A stretch of 23,173 nt of DNA, taken from Anaerolineales bacterium. Its GTDB lineage: Bacteria > Chloroflexota > Anaerolineae > Anaerolineales > UBA4823. Positions 6,552-15,243 of this stretch are shown in pieces. The stretch lies in assembly GCA_016932955.1 (NCBI GenBank), contig JAFGBV010000056.1:1-23173 (forward strand). The letters run 5' to 3'. A model generated the notes under the pieces. It searched no databases. It was not told the origin of the DNA and was given only the letters and a program-made list of their open reading frames with translations. Numbering within the stretch: the stretch's first letter is position 1; every line of letters begins with the position of its first letter. The translations under genes were made by a program, and so were the position numbers.

Positions 6552-8537
6552 ATGAAGCCCAACACACGAGGTAGTCCAAGAATAGGAGTTTACGTCTGTC
6601 ACTGCGGGACGAACATTGCCGGGACGGTCGATGTTGAGGCAGTTGCCGAATATGCCGCTCATCTCAATGGGGTTGTTTTATCCCGGCACTACACGTACAT
6701 GTGCTCTGATCCAGGTCAGGCCCTCATCCAGGATGATATCCGCGATGCGGGCCTGAATCGTGTTGTGGTGGCTTCCTGCTCGCCGTTGATGCATGAGGGC
6801 ACCTTCCGCCGGGCATGCGCTAAGGCGGGGTTGAATCCCTTCCTGTTCCAAATGGCGAACATCCGCGAGCACTGCTCTTGGATCGCAGATGACCACCAGG
6901 CAGCAACCCGCAAAGCAATTTCACTGGTTTCTGCCGCCGTTCAGCGCGTGCAGTACAACCAGCCGCTGGAAGCCCGTCAAATGCCAATGAAACAATCGGC
7001 GCTGGTGGTTGGAGGCGGGATTGCTGGGATCGAAGCTGCCCTGCGCCTAGCGGATGCGGGAAAGAAAGTGTACCTGGTGGAGCGCCAGCCGAGCATCGGC
7101 GGGCACATGGCCCAACTCTACAAAACCTTCCCCACGCTGGACTGTGCGGCTTGAATTCTCACCCCCAAAATGGTGTCCGTCGGACGCCACGAGAACATCG
7201 AGCTGCTCAGCTACAGCGAAGTTGAGAGCATAGCGGGATATGTAGGAAATTTTACCGTGCAGGTGCGCCGCAAGGCGCGTTATGTAAATGAGGATCTGTG
7301 CACGGGCTGCGGCACCTGCGTGGAGAAATGCCCCTGGAAGAAAATCCCCTCCGAATTTGATATGGGGCTGGGCACACGCCCGGCAATTTACTTCCCCTTT
7401 GCACAAGCCGTGCCGCGTGTGCCGGTGATAGATGCGGAGAACTGCGCTTATTTACAAAAGGGGAAATGCCGCGCATGCGAAAAATTCTGCCCAACCGGGG
7501 CAATCGACTTTAGTCAGAAGGAGCAACTCATTGAGGTAGAAGTAGGCACGATCATCCTGGCGACTGGTTTCCATGATTATGACCCACGGCACGCGCCGCA
7601 ATATGGGTACGGCACACTGGATAATGTACTCACCAGCATGGAATTCGAGCGGATGATCAACTCTGGGGGGCCGACCAACGGAGTGGTGCATCTCAAAGAT
7701 GGAAGCAAGCCGCGTGCAATCGCTCTGCTGCACTGTGTGGGTAGCCGCGACGTTAAGGAACACGAGTATTGCTCGCGAGTTTGCTGCATGTACTCTCTGA
7801 AGCTGGCGCAACTGATCCGCGATTATGTGGGAGCAGAGGTGCACGAGTTCTACCGTGACATGCGCGCCTTTGGCAAAGGCTACGAGAATTTCTACGAGAG
7901 AGTGGAACATGCCGGAGTTCATTTCTACCGTTTCGATGAGGGAATCCAAGTCAGCCAGCAGAACGGACAGCTCAAGGTGACTGCCCAAGATATGTACACC
8001 GGCCTGGCGAACGAGGTGCTGGTGGATATGGTGATCCTGAGCACCGGCCTGGAGCCACAGCCAGATGCGCACCAGGTTGCAGCAATCTTCGGCATCAGCC
8101 GCAGCCCGGATGGCTTCTTCCTCGAGAAGCACCCCAAACTAGCGCCAGTAGAAACGGCAACGGATGGCGTCTACCTGGCTGGCACCTGCCAGGGCCCGAA
8201 GGACATCCCCGACAGCGTGGCCCAAGGGGGCGCCGCCGCGGCGGCAGCCCTCTCACTGATGGATACCGGGTTTGTAACGCTTGAACCCTTTACTGCGTAT
8301 ATTGATACGAGCCGCTGCAGTGGCTGCCAGACCTGCGTGGGCACATGCCCATACCATGCCATCCAGATGATCGAGATAGAGGGGCGCAACGTCGCATGGG
8401 TGAATGAGGTACTCTGTAAGGGCTGCGGAACCTGCGTGGCAGGTTGCCCGGCTCACGCTGCCATGCAATATGGCTTCAGCGATGATCAAATCGGAGCAGA
8501 AATCGAAGGCGCACTGATGCTCCACTTGGAGGCGTAG
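6552..8537 (+). CDS. hdrA: HdrA-1, selenocysteine-containing FAD/iron-sulfur subunit of a Hdr-type complex
   Basis: 661 residues when the TGA at 7152-7154 is read as Sec201; otherwise the gene is split in one frame. ATG 6552 has a strong AGGAGGT site 7 nt upstream. In order: N-terminal HdrA domain with CHCGTN (16-21); FAD-binding GGGIAG (about 154-159); GGHMAQ; CAAU (Cys198, Sec201) followed by ILTPKM, the place of a conserved Cys in HdrA (Sec in some methanogens); a ferredoxin-like CxxCxxC...C at Cys250/253/256/260; a further Cys set KCRACEKFCPTGAIDF; an FAD/NAD-type core; and two C-terminal [4Fe-4S] motifs (Cys589/592/595/599 and Cys622/625/628/632). HdrA carries the FAD that bifurcates electron pairs between a high- and a low-potential path. 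It is first in a five-gene operon, 3 nt before a second hdrA. The internal ATG at 7170 is just the Met of PKM, not a start. Confidence 0.93.
7152..7154 (+). other. Recoded TGA, Sec201 of HdrA-1
   Basis: The TGA is in frame between 200 upstream codons and 460 downstream codons that both match HdrA, with no frame change. It falls in DCAA-U-ILTPKM where HdrA has Cys. The same codon is kept in the neighbouring paralogue, and a hairpin follows at suitable spacing. Confidence 0.9.
7171..7189 (+). promoter_or_regulatory. Putative bacterial SECIS hairpin of hdrA-1
   Basis: TGGTGTCC / GGACGCCA form 8 bp around a GTC loop, beginning 16 nt after the TGA, so the apical loop is 25 nt from the Sec codon. 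This is a usual distance for bacterial SECIS elements, which are read by SelB. The apical G and U fit known SelB-contacted loops. One pair is U-G here and U-A in the hdrA-2 copy, so pairing is preserved. Confidence 0.75.
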
Positions 8538-8540
8538 AAT

Positions 8541-11500
8541 ATGAATCGTTCGAAAATACGCACCGGCGTTTACGTCTGTCATTGCGGCACCAACATCTCC
8601 AGCAAAGTTGATGTGGAGAGCGTGGCTGAGTATGCGCAAACGCTGGAAGGGGTAACCCTGGCACGCGACTACACCTACATGTGCTCCGAACCAGGCCAGG
8701 ATCTGATCAAGCAGGACATCCATGCGCATGGGCTGAACCGCATCGTGGTGGCCTCCTGCTCGCCGTTGATGCATGAACCCACCTTCCGCCGGGCATGCTC
8801 TGAGGCGGGGTTGAATCCCTTCTTTTTACAGATGGCAAATATTCGTGAGCACTGCTCGTGGGTGATCGACGATCAAGAGCAGGCAACGGCAAAAGCGCGC
8901 AGCCTGGTGAATGCTGCGGTGCGGCGTGTGCACTACCACCAGCCACTCGACATGCGCACCGTGGAGATTACCCCGTCGGCGCTGGTGGTTGGAGGCGGGA
9001 TTGCCGGGATCGAAGCTGCCCTGCGCCTGGCGGATGCGGGAAAGAAAGTGTACCTGGTGGAGCGCCAGCCGAGTATCGGCGGGCACATGGCCCAAATCTA
9101 CAAAACCTTCCCCACGCTGGACTGTGCGGCTTGAATTCTCACCCCCAAAATGGTGTCCGTCGGACACCACGAGAATATCGAACTGCTCAGCTACAGCGAA
9201 GTCGAGAGCGTGTCGGGATATATAGGGAATTACCATGTGCAAGTACGCCGAAAAGCGCGCTACGTTGATGAGAGCCTGTGCGCAGGATGCGGACAGTGCG
9301 CAGAAGCCTGCCCGGTAGAGGTGATTAGCGATTTCGACGCCGGCATCAGCATGCGCAAGGCTGTTTATCGCAACTCGGCACAGGCAGTACCAGGCGCCTA
9401 TGCAATTGAAAAGCGTGGTGTGGCACCATGCCGCTCTGCCTGCCCTACCGATCAGCGTGCGGAGGGATATATCGCCCTGATCCGGCAGAAACGCTATGCT
9501 GATGCTTATTGGGCAATTCGCCGCGAGCATCCATTCCCTTCGGTGTGCGGGCGGGTGTGCAACCACCCCTGCGAGACAGCCTGCACGCGCGGCCAGGTGG
9601 ACCAACCAGTTAACATCATGGCGCTCAAGCGCTTCGTTGCAGATTGGGCTTACGAGCACCGCCACGAGCTGCCCAATATGCGCGATAAATCTCTCATCGG
9701 CACACCCTTCGAGCATCACCCGCGCCCCACCGGAAAGAAGATTGCGATCATCGGCGCCGGGCCAGCAGGGCTGACCGCGGGGATGGATTTGGTGAGGCTA
9801 GGGCATAAGGCCACCGTATTCGACAGCCTGCCGATTGCAGGAGGAATGATGCGCGTGGGCATCCCACCCCACCGGCTGCCATACCACTTACTGGATTGGG
9901 AAGTGCAACAAATTTTGGACGAAGGGGTAGAGCTGCACCTGAACACGCGCATCGAAGATATCCCCGGCCTGTTCGAAAAAGGTTACCACGCCGTGGTGAT
10001 TGCCACCGGCGCTCACCAGGCGACCAAGTTGAGCATTCCCGGCTCTGAGCACCCGGATAACTGGCTGAGCCTGGACCTGCTGAAGCGGGCCTGCCTGGAT
10101 GAGAGCCTGAGCCTGAGCGGGCGCGAGATTGTGGTGCTGGGGGCGGGCGATGTGGCGCTGGATGCAGCCCGCACTGCTGTCCGGCTGGGGAAACCGAAAG
10201 TGAGCATTGTCTGCCGTGGCATGCGGGCATCCTTCAACGAGATAGAGGAAGCACAGGCAGAAGGCATCCAGATCATCCGCAACCGGGTATTTAAGGAAGT
10301 GGATGTGCGCTTTGGCAAGATCATCGGCATCTTATGCCTGGAGGCCGAGGTGGGAGATGTGGTTGGCGGGCAGCGCCAGGTGCGGGAGATCCCCGGCACC
10401 GAACACATCATCCCCTGCGATATGGTGATCTGGGCGCTGGGCCAGCGGCCCGATTTCTCTTTCTTACCGGATGATGGCTCGATTGCCACCCGCTACCCAA
10501 TCGGCCTGTGGGCAAACGACGAGATGATGACCACCCGGCCCGGTGTGTTTACTGCCGGCGACCTGCGCCGTGGTACAACTTTCTTTGTAGTGGACGCCAT
10601 CGCAGAGGGGCACCATGTGGCTCGCTGCGTGGACCGTTACCTGCGCGGCGAAAGAGGCGTGCCCGAGCCGCACCTATCGCCTCCGGCGCAGCTCAGCATG
10701 GCGGAAATTGAAGCCAAGTTCAGGCGGGGCGAAGCATCGCAGCGCGAGCGGGTGCAGATTGCTTCAATCCCACCAGAAATGCGTGAAAACAATTTCGACG
10801 AGGTCGATATCACGCTCACGGAAGAACAAGCCCTGGCTGAGGCAGAGCGCTGCCTGCGCTGTGGGGTTTGCTCGGAATGCCTGGAATGCGTGGCAGCCTG
10901 CGAGCGCGGCGCGATAAACCATGATATGGAAGACAGCTATCTGGATCTGCAGGTGGGGACGATCATCCTGGCTACCGGATTCAAAGATTTCGACCCGCAG
11001 CGCGCACCTGAGCTGGGGTATGGAACACTGCCTAATGTGATCACCGCACTGGAATTCGAGCGCATGATCAATGTGTCTGGGCCAACCGGCGGCAAAGTGT
11101 TGATGAAGAACGGGCAGGCGCCGCGCAGCGTAGCCATCCTGCACTGCGTGGGCAGCCGTGACAGCAAGTACAACGATTATTGCTCGCGGGCTTGCTGCAT
11201 GTACTCACTGAAACTCGCCCAACTGGTGCATGATTACATGGATGCTGAAGTGTACGAGATCTATCGTGACATGCGTACGTTTGGCAAAGGATATGAAGAA
11301 TTCTATAACCGCACCCGCGCCAAAGGTGTGAATTTCTACCATGGGCGTGTGCAAAACATTGAAACGCAGGATGGGCAGCTCACCGTTCGCTGGGGCGAGG
11401 CTTTCCACAACCAGCCCGACCACGTGACGGTGGACATGGTGATTCTTGCCACGGGCTTCGAACCGCAGGAGGACACCGGACATATCAGCAGCTTGTTTGG

Positions 11501-11969
11501 GGTCAGCCGCAGCAAAGATGGCTTCTTCATGGAAAAGCACCCCAAACTGGCACCGGTGGAAACAGCCAGCGAGGGAATTTACCTGGCCGGCACCTGCCAG
11601 GCGCCTAAAGATATCCCCGATAGTGTGGCGCACGCCGGTGGCGCAGCTGCAGCGGCGCTTTCGCTGCTGGATCAGGGCAAGATCGCCCTCGATCCTTCCA
11701 TCGCCCAGGTGAACGTGCAGCGTTGCGCCGGGTGCGGGCAGTGTGTGATTGCCTGCCCGTACGGTGCCATCAGCCTGGTGGATGGGGCTGCTTCGATCAA
11801 CAGCTTCTTGTGCAAAGGCTGCGGAACCTGCGCAGCCGCCTGCCCCAATAAGGCAATGTCGCTGCTCCACTTCGATGACCAGCAGATCGTCAACGAGATC
11901 ATCGGCGCACTGAGCATAGAGAAGCCATTGATTCCTGGCATCGTGGACGGATCGGAGGTGAGCAGATGA
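8541..11969 (+). CDS. hdrA: HdrA-2, selenocysteine HdrA with an inserted GltD/NfnB-like NADPH flavoprotein module
   Basis: 1142 residues with the TGA at 9132-9134 read as Sec198. HdrA parts: CHCGTN (residues 13-18), GGGIAG, CAAU-ILTPKM (Cys195, Sec198) and a ferredoxin motif at Cys247/250/253/257. After QAVPGAY, about residues 290-705 are a GltD/NfnB-like module: N-terminal Cys cluster CRSACPT...CGRVCNHPCETAC, FAD motif IIGAGPAGLTAG (about 402-413), pyridine-nucleotide motif VVLGAGDVALDAARTAVRLG (about 530-549) and the closing TAGDLRRG...VDAIAEGHHVARC. The HdrA chain resumes with a Cys-rich RCLRCGVCSECLECVAAC (about 770-787), VGTIILATGF and two C-terminal [4Fe-4S] motifs (about 1060-1108). 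Ordinary HdrA is about 650 residues. The insert implies a second FAD and direct NADP(H) exchange. Its stop overlaps the next ATG (ATGA). Confidence 0.9.
9132..9134 (+). other. Recoded TGA, Sec198 of HdrA-2
   Basis: The in-frame TGA lies in DCAA-U-ILTPKM, the same place as in HdrA-1. The 197 upstream and 944 downstream codons belong to one HdrA chain. The same gene ends with a TGA used as stop, so context, not a changed code, must decide. Confidence 0.9.
9151..9169 (+). promoter_or_regulatory. Putative bacterial SECIS hairpin of hdrA-2
   Basis: TGGTGTCC / GGACACCA, 8 perfect Watson-Crick pairs around a GTC loop, at the same distance from the TGA as in hdrA-1. Confidence 0.75.
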
Positions 11970-13381
11970 GCTACGAGCCAAAGATCGTCGCCTTCCTGTG
12001 CAGTTGGTGTTCCTACACCGGAGCAGATACCGCCGGGATCGCACGGATGAAATCGCCAGCCAACCTGCGCACCATCCGTGTGCCCTGCTCGGGACGGGTG
12101 GCGCCAGAATGGATCATGCGCGCCTTTGACCAGGGTGCTGATGGGGTGCTGGTGTTAGGCTGCCACATCGGCGAATGCCACTATGATAGCGGAAACCACC
12201 GCGCAGCCAAGCGCATCCCCGTCCTCCAGCAATTGATGGCTTATGCGGGGCTGGAGAAAGAACGGTTGCACCTGGATTGGGTGTCAGCCTCTGAAGGCGA
12301 GCGTTACTCGCGAATCACTACCGAGTTCACCGAGCGCATCCGCGCCCTGGGGCCGGTGCGCTGGCGCGTTGAAGGTAACCAGTGGGAGGCCTTGCGCCAG
12401 GCTGCAGCCTCAATCGACCAGGAACTGCCCACTGTGCCGGGCATCCTGGCAAACCCATCGCCCCCAGCAGAGCGCTTCACGCAGGAGATCCAGCAGACTG
12501 CTCACGACCTGTTAGCCAATGGCGAGGTGAGCTGTGTGATCGGGTATGAGGTGGGGCCGCGCGGGCGAACCCGCCCGGCATTCATTTACCGACCTGATGA
12601 AGCCCAACGCCTGGTATGGAACCAGGATTGCACCCACAACCTGACTACTTACCTGAGCCAGAAACTGGGCAAGCCTCGTCCAGGTCAAAAAGCTAAAACC
12701 GAAAAGCCCGCCCGCGTGGCAGTAGTAGTAAAAGCATGTGATAGCCGGGCGATCAACATGTTGATGGCAGAAAACCACTTTGAGCGCGAGCAAGTGCATG
12801 TGATCGGGGTGGTTTGCGAAGGCATTCGCCAGGGCGCCGGGTTTGATGCGCCTGCCCCAGGACCCTGGAAGATGCAAGATCGCTGCCTGGAGTGTTATGA
12901 GCACACGCCAGTGGTTTACGATACGCTGATCGGCGAGGTAATGCCTGTAACAGGAGAGCCTGGCAAACCATCCAACATGAGCGTTGGGATGGAGGCTTTA
13001 CAAAACATGTCACCCAGCCAGCGTATGGAGTTCTGGCTCAGCCAGTTTGACCGCTGTATCCGCTGCTATGCCTGCCGGCAGGCCTGCCCCATGTGCGATT
13101 GCCCCACCTGCCTTTACGAGAGGGATGACTCCTTGTGGGTTGGCATGGGGGTGGGGCTCAATGAGAAACGCACCTTTCACCTGGGACGCGCTTACCACCT
13201 AGCAGGGCGCTGCATCGGCTGTGATGAGTGCATGCGGGTCTGCCCGATGAACATTCCCATCGGGCTACTCAACCGCATGTTGGCGCAAGAAATGCAAAGC
13301 CAATTTGGATACCGCGCCGGGCTGGCTGCGGTTCCCGCACCATTTACGACGATCCTGGGTGGAGAGGAGGAACACGCATGA
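11966..13381 (+). CDS. MvhD/FlxD-FlxC-like fusion, iron-sulfur electron-transfer subunit
   Basis: 471 residues. Residues 1-about 135 are an MvhD/FlxD domain (FLCSWCSYTGADTAG with Cys12 and Cys15, then VPCSGRV and GCHIGECHY), the [2Fe-2S] adaptor that hands electrons to HdrA. From about residue 185 follows a FrhB/FlxC-like region (CVIGYEVGPRGRTRPAFIY, VVVKACDSRAINMLMAEN, DRCLECYEHTPVVYDTLIGE). The C-terminus has two ferredoxin motifs: CIRCYACRQACPMCDC and CIGCDECMRVCPMNIPIG. In Desulfovibrio-type Flx-Hdr systems FlxC and FlxD are separate proteins. The ATG overlaps the hdrA-2 stop, and the stop overlaps the next ATG, so the subunits are coupled. The MvhD half is secure; the name of the C-terminal half is less sure. 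Confidence 0.82.
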   Translation: MSYEPKIVAFLCSWCSYTGADTAGIARMKSPANLRTIRVPCSGRVAPEWIMRAFDQGADGVLVLGCHIGECHYDSGNHRAAKRIPVLQQLMAYAGLEKERLHLDWVSASEGERYSRITTEFTERIRALGPVRWRVEGNQWEALRQAAASIDQELPTVPGILANPSPPAERFTQEIQQTAHDLLANGEVSCVIGYEVGPRGRTRPAFIYRPDEAQRLVWNQDCTHNLTTYLSQKLGKPRPGQKAKTEKPARVAVVVKACDSRAINMLMAENHFEREQVHVIGVVCEGIRQGAGFDAPAPGPWKMQDRCLECYEHTPVVYDTLIGEVMPVTGEPGKPSNMSVGMEALQNMSPSQRMEFWLSQFDRCIRCYACRQACPMCDCPTCLYERDDSLWVGMGVGLNEKRTFHLGRAYHLAGRCIGCDECMRVCPMNIPIGLLNRMLAQEMQSQFGYRAGLAAVPAPFTTILGGEEEHA

Positions 13382-14370
13382 GTATTATCACACACCAGGA
13401 ATTGACTGCCTGGCTGGACCAGGTGGCGACCGCTAACCTTCTGGCAGCCCCACGCCTTGTGGACGGTGTGCTCCTCTACCGCCCAGTGACCCACAGCGCA
13501 GAAATCGCCTGGGGTTACACTCGGCCGGTGTTATCGGCCAAGGAGTTCTTCTTCCCGGCGACAGAAAGGCTGCTTCAAATCCAAAAAACCGGGCAGCAAG
13601 TGCGCCTGATCGAGACTCTGCCAGAGGGAGAGCTGGTCTTGTTTGGGATACGCCCCTGCGATGCCCGCGGCCTGCAGGCGCTGGATGCGCTTTTTATCGA
13701 CACGCCCCCTATTGATCCCTACTATGCCAGGCGACGCGCCAACACCACGCTGGTTGGGCTGGCCTGTAAAGAAGAAGGCCCCAGTTGCTTCTGCACGCGC
13801 ATGGGCGGCGCACCAGACGATGCCAGCGGGATGGATGTGATGTTGCAAGAGGTGGATGGCGGATACGTTGCCCAGGCAATCACACCGAAAGGCGAGAGGC
13901 TGCTACAGGAAGCTGGTTTTACCGCTCAACCCGGGAGACCGCCCACGAAGAAGAAAGCCGACCTTCCTCCGCTGGACGCTTGGCCGCCTGAGTTTGCGGA
14001 TGCCTATTGGGCGCAAATGGCAGAACGCTGCCTCTCATGCCGCATCTGTGCCTACGTCTGCCCCACCTGCCGCTGTTTCGATGTGCGCGATGAGGCAGTG
14101 AGCACCCCCGAAGGGTCTGAGGAATTTGAGCGCCTGCGCTGCTGGGATGCCTGCACCAGGGAAACCTACCGCACTACTGCCGGAGGGCATAATCCACGCG
14201 CCGATAAAGGGATGCGCCTGCGCAACCGCTTCTTCTGTAAATTTTATTATTACCCCGAGCAATACGGCCCTACTGGCTGCACGGGCTGCGGGCGATGCGT
14301 GGATGCCTGCCCGGTGAACATCGATATCACCGAAGTGCTGGAGCATGTAACAGCGAGGATCATGGAATAA
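13378..14370 (+). CDS. FlxB/AsrA-like 4Fe-4S dicluster protein
   Basis: 330 residues from the ATG at 13378, which overlaps the previous stop (ATGA) and has GGAGAGGAGG about 8 nt upstream; an in-frame extension to 13228 lies inside the previous gene. Residues 1-200 match the AsrA / FlxB / hydrogenase-beta type (VLSAKEFFFPATERLL, FGIRPCDARGLQALDALF, ACKEEGPSCFCTRMGG). Two [4Fe-4S] motifs follow: Cys218/221/224/228 (CLSCRICAYVCP) and Cys301/304/307/311 (CTGCGRCVDACP). Such proteins relay electrons from the flavin reductase subunit to the rest of the complex. Next to a FlxA-like gene and MvhD/HdrA genes, the FlxB role is the better reading than anaerobic sulfite reductase, whose AsrC subunit is absent here. 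Confidence 0.85.
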   Translation: MSIITHQELTAWLDQVATANLLAAPRLVDGVLLYRPVTHSAEIAWGYTRPVLSAKEFFFPATERLLQIQKTGQQVRLIETLPEGELVLFGIRPCDARGLQALDALFIDTPPIDPYYARRRANTTLVGLACKEEGPSCFCTRMGGAPDDASGMDVMLQEVDGGYVAQAITPKGERLLQEAGFTAQPGRPPTKKKADLPPLDAWPPEFADAYWAQMAERCLSCRICAYVCPTCRCFDVRDEAVSTPEGSEEFERLRCWDACTRETYRTTAGGHNPRADKGMRLRNRFFCKFYYYPEQYGPTGCTGCGRCVDACPVNIDITEVLEHVTARIME

Positions 14371-14397
14371 ACCCCAGCCGAGATCAGGAGAGATGCC

Positions 14398-15243
14398 ATG
14401 ACCGATACACACGATAATCCGATGCTGCCCTACCAGGGCAAGCTGGTGGAGGTCAAAGACCTGGCTGCTGAGATCAAGCTGTTCCGGGTTGAGCTACTGA
14501 ATGGGGGCAGCCAGGTGTTCAGCGATTACCAGCCCGGACAGTTCGCTTTCCTCTCTGCCTGGGGCACCGGCGAAGCGCCTTTTGGCATCGCCAGCACCCC
14601 GCAGCGCGGCAAGACGCTGGACTTTGCCGTGCAACGCTTGGGGGCGGTGACCACTGATCTGCACGAGCTGGGGGTTGGCGACCCGCTGGGGGTGCGCGGG
14701 CCAATGGGCAATTGGTTTCCAATGCAACAGTTCAAGGGTAAGAATCTGATCGTCATTGGCGGCGGGATCGGCGGGGCACCGCTGCGTCCTGTGATCCAGA
14801 GCGTGCTTGATCAGCGCTCTGATTACGGGCATCTCACCATCTTATGGGCTGCGCGCCACCCTTCCCTTCTCGTGTTCACAGACGAATACGACGAATGGCG
14901 CACCGCCCCCGATACCGATCTGCACCTGACGGTTGACCAGGCCGATGAAAACTGGCCACACAACACCGGGTTGATCACAGACTTGCTGGCGCGTGTATCG
15001 CCCTCCCCGGCGAATGCGGTTGCCATCATTTGCGGCCCGCCGATCATGATCCACTTCGTCAACAAGCTGCTGGTGGAGGAAATTGGTTTTTCACCGGCGC
15101 AGAATCACGTCACGCTGGAGGCGCGCATGCACTGCGGGATTGGCAAATGCGGGCGCTGCAACCTGGGAGATAAGCTGATCTGCGTGGATGGGCCGGTTTT
15201 CACCATGGCTGAAGTGGGGGGGCTTTTGGAGAATTTCCTGTAA
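14398..15243 (+). CDS. FlxA/AsrB-like NAD(P)H:flavin oxidoreductase subunit
   Basis: 281 residues of the ferredoxin-NADP+ reductase fold (PyrK / AsrB / FlxA group). An N-terminal FAD-binding beta-barrel (YQPGQFAFLSAWGTGEAPFGIAS) is followed by the nucleotide-binding domain (NLIVIGGGIGGAPLRPVI near 115-132, and IICGPPIMIHFVNKLL). A C-terminal [2Fe-2S] site is at Cys246, Cys251, Cys254 and Cys262 (CGIGKCGRCNLGDKLIC). It likely oxidises NADH and feeds the FlxB/FlxCD/HdrA chain. It begins 27 nt after the previous stop with a CAGGAGAG site. The preference for NADH over NADPH cannot be read from the sequence. Confidence 0.87.
   Translation: MTDTHDNPMLPYQGKLVEVKDLAAEIKLFRVELLNGGSQVFSDYQPGQFAFLSAWGTGEAPFGIASTPQRGKTLDFAVQRLGAVTTDLHELGVGDPLGVRGPMGNWFPMQQFKGKNLIVIGGGIGGAPLRPVIQSVLDQRSDYGHLTILWAARHPSLLVFTDEYDEWRTAPDTDLHLTVDQADENWPHNTGLITDLLARVSPSPANAVAIICGPPIMIHFVNKLLVEEIGFSPAQNHVTLEARMHCGIGKCGRCNLGDKLICVDGPVFTMAEVGGLLENFL

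Follow-up and report, generated by a model that had tools for sequence, protein, structure and literature searches.

The stretch of DNA analysed here, referred to as the window, comprises 23,173 nucleotides of contig JAFGBV010000056.1 (assembly GCA_016932955.1) from an Anaerolineales bacterium of the Chloroflexota. Positions 6552-15243 form a compact unit of five genes encoding HdrA-1, HdrA-2, an MvhD-FlxC fusion, FlxB and FlxA (Table 1), with intergenic gaps of 3 and 27 bp and a 4-bp overlap at two junctions. A sequence-only reading of this DNA, confined to 8541-15243, had described FlxA-, FlxB- and FlxCD-like proteins together with a second HdrA, and gene calls and domains confirm this; HdrA-1 starts upstream of that range, yet it is part of the unit. 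FlxA and FlxB are similar to the gamma and beta subunits of sulfhydrogenase I, respectively, and FlxA, FlxB, FlxC and FlxD (MvhD) are all present by family resemblance rather than by direct comparison with characterised FlxA-D sequences. Since the domain scores far exceed chance and conservation is overwhelming, we reject chance or an annotation artefact as the source of the unit. The gene unit, its domain order, ligands and conservation and the lack of HdrBC in the operon are read directly from the sequence. No CCG (HdrB-type) domain is found in the 15 window proteins that were scanned against Pfam, nor in any window frame of at least 70 aa by a home-made CCG profile. MetV and MetF, which mark a Moorella-type methylenetetrahydrofolate reductase (MTHFR), are likewise missing from these 15 proteins. 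FlxA scores 84 bits against a curated NfnA cut-off of 220, below the threshold, and no StnAB (HydBC-like) core occurs among the operon proteins, the remainder of the genomes not having been searched for StnAB. There are no Rfam or tRNA matches within the window.

HdrA-2 matches NF040770 (HdrA2) in two stretches that total 809 bits, short of the model cut-off of 1100, and it contains an insert that matches a PRK12771-type protein binding nicotinamide adenine dinucleotide (phosphate), NAD(P), at 467 bits (cut-off 516), as well as Fer4_20 and Pyr_redox_2. A GltD/NfnB-like insertion had been predicted between the first ferredoxin domain and the core of HdrA-2. Such an insertion is present, but it interrupts the ferredoxin domain itself, between C247-C257 and C777-C787. 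It is circularly permuted as in StnC/NfnABC, and NfnABC and StnC are also its closest folds in a Foldseek comparison, whose matches carry no information on function. The motif for flavin adenine dinucleotide (FAD), the nucleotide motif and the iron-sulfur ligands are all kept; a loss of FAD or nucleotide residues, named beforehand as grounds for abandoning the proposed complex, is not seen. In the available part of PMC10482914, the ligand to the FAD-proximal [4Fe-4S] cluster is Glu in NfnB and Lys in StnC. The insert has Lys363 at this position, equal to StnC K170, so it is StnC-type rather than NfnB-like as first labelled, which makes a feeding role likelier than that of a second bifurcation site. 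It could be argued that the insert is nonetheless an NfnB-like second flavin-bifurcating site, giving two bifurcations per chain as the accessible text of PMC9012536 proposes for HdrA9-11 of anaerobic methanotrophic archaea (ANME-1), and R445 of the insert does align with NfnB Arg187. However, StnC keeps the Arg too, yet does not bifurcate, and with Lys363 in place of Glu and StnC among the closest folds we regard this scenario as quite improbable. We read the insert as a nucleotide port that would feed the bifurcating HdrA flavin.

Table 1. Features of the five-gene unit and their positions in the window (A1, alignment of 42 rows; Sec, selenocysteine; SECIS, selenocysteine insertion sequence; FeS, iron-sulfur)
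Feature	Position	Strand	Basis
HdrA-1, complete HdrA with intact 2[4Fe-4S] inserted ferredoxin domain	6552..8537	+	domain matches, alignment
In-frame TGA, putative Sec201 of HdrA-1 (Cys197 position of M. thermolithotrophicus HdrA)	7152..7154	+	alignment, Cys homologues
SECIS-like hairpin after HdrA-1 TGA, 8 bp stem, 3-nt loop	7171..7189	+	folding
HdrA-2, HdrA with inserted GltD/StnC-type flavoprotein module	8541..11969	+	domain matches, alignment A1, predicted model, fold comparison
In-frame TGA, putative Sec198 of HdrA-2	9132..9134	+	Cys homologues
SECIS-like hairpin after HdrA-2 TGA	9151..9169	+	folding
First half of HdrA-2 ferredoxin domain: C247, C250, C253, C257	9279..9311	+	invariant in A1
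GltD/StnC-like insert, about residues 291-775	9411..10865	+	domain matches, alignments, fold comparison
Insert: Fer4_20, FAD motif 405-410, R445, K363	within 9411..10865	+	alignments
Insert: nucleotide motif 534-539, CRGMR 558-562	within 9411..10865	+	alignment, motif counts
Insert: permuted NfnB N-terminal segment with C771/C774	within 9411..10865	+	alignment, fold comparison
Second half of HdrA-2 ferredoxin domain: C777, C780, C783, C787	10869..10901	+	invariant in A1
HdrA-2 C-terminal ferredoxin domain	11688..11885	+	domain match
MvhD (FlxD) fused to FlxC	11966..13381	+	domain matches; dicluster at the C-terminus similar to FdhB of Hdr-Fdh complexes
FlxB, AsrA / sulfhydrogenase-beta-like FeS protein	13378..14370	+	family resemblance
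FlxA, AsrB / sulfhydrogenase-gamma / PyrK-like NAD(P)H-FAD-[2Fe-2S] protein	14398..15243	+	family resemblance

The Lys/Glu signature of HdrA is kept in both copies, as K417/E366 in HdrA-1 and as K891/E840 in HdrA-2, the latter pair (equivalent to K409/E356) being invariant in A1. In HdrA-1 all 8 Cys residues of the ferredoxin domain and K417 (the K409 equivalent) occur in 12/12 rows, among them the window and locus L085 (genome G009).

The unit is not confined to the window. Twelve related genomes with a close HdrA-2 were recovered (G001-G007, G241, G277, G172, G313 and G279), hereafter the tandem genomes, all of which carry it complete or cut by contig ends; a close HdrA-2 is found in 8/201 genomes of the order sample (the last five of these together with G001, G002 and G004). 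HdrA-1, whole or cut, is present in 12/12, and MvhD, FlxC, FlxB and FlxA follow downstream in 11 of them (with FlxA cut by the contig end in L091), while the twelfth contig (L002) stops inside MvhD. The genes around the operon vary, with a MAM-domain protein, ClpB and sensor kinases recurring in some genomes, and none of the seven recurring flank genes that were identified is metabolic. In the class sample, a junction query (E 1e-80) has matches at 51 places in 40/120 genomes. Only four of these places, L001, L038 (in broken frames), L049 and L051, combine the insert with a single HdrA that retains an N-terminal domain of its own. The remaining places are mostly double HdrA proteins of about 1500 aa with a GltD insert, and both double-HdrA loci checked (L063 and L075) adjoin MetV/MetF, that is, Moorella-type MTHFR clusters. 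The order sample yields 15 matches, and the seven beyond the close HdrA-2 comprise one protein of the double type and six of a type of about 1080 aa (one cut), with an adjacent CCG-CCG gene in 4/6. The HdrA-GltD proteins of about 1080 aa at L095-L100 run from a thioredoxin reductase-like (TrxR) start through GltD and the HdrA N-terminal domain to ferredoxin, and the uncut loci among them also have MvhD, CCG-CCG and an HdrA-MvhD fusion. Long-branch GltD-bearing HdrA proteins, one of them near an HdrB-like gene, are encoded at L087 and L089 in G013, the genome of the Desulfobacteraceae locus L014. On an Aminicenantes contig (L011:2008-11077), the N-terminal and C-terminal halves of HdrA lie about 7 kb apart.

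From these genes we infer a complex, its ports and their coenzymes, and a direction and bifurcation of electron flow. The simplest reading has three nucleotide or ferredoxin ports. HdrA-1 and HdrA-2, as duplicates within one family, would form a pseudo-symmetric HdrA dimer. Electrons from NAD(P)H would enter at FlxA and pass through FlxB, FlxC, MvhD and the C-terminal clusters of HdrA to the HdrA FAD. The StnC-type insert of HdrA-2 would take a second nucleotide, in the window probably NADP(H), and its clusters would connect directly with the split ferredoxin domain; ferredoxin itself would dock on HdrA-1, where this domain is uninterrupted. Coupling would occur at the HdrA flavins, where the Lys/Glu signature is retained. 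Overall, the complex could plausibly convert NADH + reduced ferredoxin + 2 NADP+ to NAD+ + oxidised ferredoxin + 2 NADPH, or catalyse the reverse. With potentials of about -280 mV for NADH, -380 mV for NADP and -500 mV for ferredoxin, as given in the available part of PMC9304861, an Nfn-like reaction of this kind is thermodynamically sensible. As our leading explanation, the unit may encode one soluble complex on an HdrA scaffold that works as a ferredoxin-linked transhydrogenase in the manner of Nfn/Stn, a proposal to which we give slightly less than an even chance.

Several observations weigh against this proposal, those on the coenzyme first. An acidic residue at the end of the second Rossmann strand classically favours NAD, while basic residues favour NADP. 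The window insert has GxGxxA (GAGDVA) and, at the end of the second strand, CRGMR with no acidic residue. The Ala of GxGxxA is found in 119/119 homologues listed, of which 86 have CRG and 33 the NAD-type CLE at the second strand; the 13 tandem insert copies have CRG (7), CLE (4) and FRK (2), so that 4/13 are NAD-type. The second-strand figures are raw motif counts, since A1 sets 'CLEPR' against 'CRGMR' and R559 thereby looks invariant in it. The sequence-only reading had named NADP(H) as the third redox partner. For the window this is plausible, yet it is not secure, because of the NAD-like signature in so many homologues, and NADP(H) is likely for the window's insert without being fixed across the family. 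The FlxA coenzyme is not readable from sequence, and no clear covariation links the FlxA nucleotide loop to the insert signature. It is possible that NADH serves at both nucleotide sites, which would make the complex an NADH:ferredoxin hub, or one with an unknown acceptor, without transhydrogenation. CLE also occurs in L091-L093 and in one L005 copy, NADH use is proposed for archaeal type III HdrA (PMC12054007), and NADH acts as an electron carrier for the Moorella MTHFR, an enzyme whose HdrA includes GltD (PMC13391211, PMC7325909), as far as the accessible parts of these papers go. However, the window's own GxGxxA and CRGMR speak against a second NADH site, and YRR, as in NfnB and StnC, is found in L085 and in the type that combines CCG and Flx genes, so we hold this alternative to be unlikely. 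The operon at L005:1866-13966 contains three HdrA genes, in the order HdrA-GltD (CLE), HdrA-1 and HdrA-GltD (FRK), followed by MvhD-FlxC, FlxB and FlxA; its complex possibly has one NAD port plus one NADP port.

A second set of difficulties concerns the disulfide branch. In 12/12 HdrA-1 rows C395, C407, C411 and C412, which we take to be the Cys set of the HdrA cluster that passes electrons to HdrC, are kept, as if a partner still docks. CCG proteins are encoded elsewhere in all 12 tandem genomes, some adjoining other HdrA genes. The unit could thus belong to an FlxABCD-HdrABC-type NADH dehydrogenase / disulfide reductase that receives HdrB and HdrC from other loci, with GltD as a second nucleotide entry. 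A related type does have these subunits within its operon: an HdrC-HdrB fusion (Fer4_8 + CCG + CCG) occupies the place of HdrA-1 in L038 and L051, followed by HdrA-GltD, MvhD, FlxC, FlxB and FlxA, and a CCG-CCG protein occupies it in L049. Moreover, archaeal hdrABC and mvh genes are frequently not co-localised (PMC6085437, in the part available). Yet the lack of HdrB/HdrC in the operon, as originally claimed, is borne out by the window scans and by the relatives found, and consistent co-location of HdrB/HdrC genes in relatives, named in advance as evidence to the contrary, is half borne out, by L038, L051 and L049. No curated CCG (PF02754) gene lies on the operon contigs of 11/12 of these; the exception, G006, encodes a CCG protein of 635 aa, read from the other strand and about 3.9 kb past FlxA, and has a weak second match (1e-4) tens of kb off. 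Besides, the best non-operon HdrA already has an adjacent CCG gene in 5/7 genomes compared (G001, G002, G004, G006 and G007), whereas in G003 and G005 its contig is without one, so HdrB may be shared there. On balance, supply of HdrBC in trans appears rather unlikely.

Two further points bear on the transhydrogenase proposal. The split ferredoxin domain corresponds to the low-potential exit of canonical HdrA, so a nucleotide donor there would oppose the usual flow. The distribution of other transhydrogenases is of little help: NfnA above the curated cut-off is found in 0/12 tandem Anaerolineales genomes, and this depletion is not significant, either in the order sample (0/8 versus 41/193, p 0.16) or with the four added genomes (0/12, p 0.06). 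NfnA is present in G009, the genome of L085, and PntB is rare order-wide (2/201). An anticorrelation between Nfn and the operon is weak, and we do not rely on it.

Both HdrA genes appear to encode selenoproteins. The motif FPTLDCAAUILTPKM contains a single in-frame TGA in each, aligned (by our own count) with Cys197 of M. thermolithotrophicus HdrA, whose counterpart in the M. wolfeii structure is a ligand to the N-terminal cluster of the opposite HdrA, according to the accessible text of PMC9012536. Cys stands at this position in both HdrA genes of L002, L003 and L085. Among the copies folded, a hairpin with an 8-bp stem and a loop of 3 nt just 3' of the TGA is found in 6/6 Sec copies and in 0/2 Cys copies, with modest z-scores against shuffles (-1.5 to -2.3). 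A UGA at the Cys197 position, a downstream hairpin and Cys homologues are thus found together, and the TGAs look like Sec codons. We reject the readings that they are genuine stops or mark a pseudogene, given that homologues have Cys, that the hairpin is there and that the sequence is conserved to both sides. selB is present in 9/12 tandem Anaerolineales genomes and in G009; it was not found in G007, G277 and G172 (assemblies of 1.8-1.9 Mb), though all three have the TGA. Since Cys versions occur, calling the complex selenium-dependent, as had been done, is too strong. The predicted HdrA-2 model is poor around the Sec loop (residues 179-199, predicted local distance difference test score below 50).

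How the tandem unit arose is best judged from a careful HdrA-core tree of 36 rows and the approximately unbiased (AU) test, on which our claim rests, rather than from a quick HdrA-core tree. In the careful tree, the HdrA-1 and HdrA-2 copies of the Anaerolineales unit each form a clade (98/98 and 100/99) and the two clades group as sisters (99/98); the HdrA pair of L085 are each other's nearest (100/99). Monophyly of all tandem-type inserted copies is rejected for the HdrA core (p 6.6e-11), and in the insert tree L085 (p 3.2e-8) and the CCG+Flx type (p 2.8e-42) stand apart from the window clade. A single origin of all HdrA-GltD + Flx units is thereby disfavoured, three insert lineages occur together with Flx, and the simplest account has the tandem unit arise on at least two occasions. 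However, the groups tested were named after the trees had been seen, and two origins could be mimicked by gene conversion and insert exchange acting together: conversion between tandem copies could make the L085 pair appear as sisters in the core, and exchange could set its insert apart in the insert tree, and both processes would be required. The DNA of HdrA-1 and HdrA-2 is 97% identical (175/180) around the Sec codon and hairpin (7016-7195 versus 8996-9175), against about 40-80% in other 60-base blocks apart from a further high block at 6783-6842 (55/60), which suggests gene conversion of the flavin/Sec segment. The window clade's insert groups among those of double-HdrA proteins and is probably derived from them. 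One may further propose that an HdrA-scaffold ferredoxin-dependent NAD(P) transhydrogenase is a further architecture beside Nfn/Stn, reached through HdrA duplication, splicing of a StnC-type module into one ferredoxin port and loss of HdrBC, with at least two independent assemblies and switching between NADP and NAD types among close relatives (both types being present in the L005 operon), but in this extended form the proposal is doubtful, if possible.

It had been claimed that no characterised complex has this architecture. This does not hold for the GltD domain within the HdrA ferredoxin domain, which is described in Moorella thermoacetica HdrA (PMC9430772), in ANME-1 HdrA9-11 (Chadwick 2022; PMC9012536) and in archaeal type III HdrA, named in a 2025 study (PMC12054007); the whole bacterial HdrA/HdrA-GltD/Flx unit without HdrBC does look new, no description having been found in a literature search that left out subscription papers and is thus no proof. 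The comparisons that follow take published systems as the accessible sections of their papers present them. Like HdrA-2, type III HdrA (ANME-1, Bathyarchaeota) has a GltD/NfnB-like domain inside its ferredoxin domain and keeps Lys/Glu, and replacement of ferredoxin by NAD(P)H in the electron route is already proposed there, with the insert blocking ferredoxin and bringing NADH to the HdrA FAD (PMC12054007). The nine sequences of that study are archaeal and cluster with mvhADG or several hdrA, whereas the window unit is bacterial and has a Flx module, GxGxxA with CRGMR, and a duplicate, HdrA-1, that still offers an intact ferredoxin site. A GXGXXG (NAD-type) motif is reported for type III HdrA, by which the paper may mean an FAD or an NAD(P) motif; the window has GAGDVA instead, and we therefore file HdrA-2 as the same architecture rather than as a type III member. 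Moorella HdrA shares the interruption of ferredoxin and TrxR-like domains by GltD, an MvhD partner and the Lys/Glu signatures, but it is a double protein, 1487 aa long, that occurs together with MetVF and HdrBC, whereas the window has a single HdrA, a separate HdrA-1 and Flx. As in FlxABCD-HdrABC (Ramos 2015), FlxA, B, C and D would feed HdrA, here with a GltD insert and a second HdrA and without HdrB/HdrC; unlike in HdrABC, no CCG-domain HdrB active site is encoded with HdrA. Stn/NfnABC (8oh5, 9bov, 9n5u) contain the same permuted GltD module, and StnC, with its Lys ligand, feeds an external bifurcating flavin; in the window unit the HdrA flavin would replace the StnAB core. NfnAB likewise has a GltD-like FAD subunit, and FlxA is distantly NfnA-like, but the window unit differs in its Lys ligand, its circular permutation and its lack of an NfnA above cut-off.

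If the transhydrogenase proposal is true, a group of uncultured anaerobic Chloroflexota (8/201 genomes of the order sample) would be able to keep its NADH, NADPH and ferredoxin in balance with neither NfnAB nor a membrane transhydrogenase, and the HdrA bifurcation core could work without a disulfide branch. Whether HdrA can do so is a question also raised by lone and tandem archaeal hdrA genes (PMC12054007, in the part available), and the natural variants of this family (Cys or Sec, CRG or CLE, and HdrA-1 swapped for HdrCB) make it directly testable.

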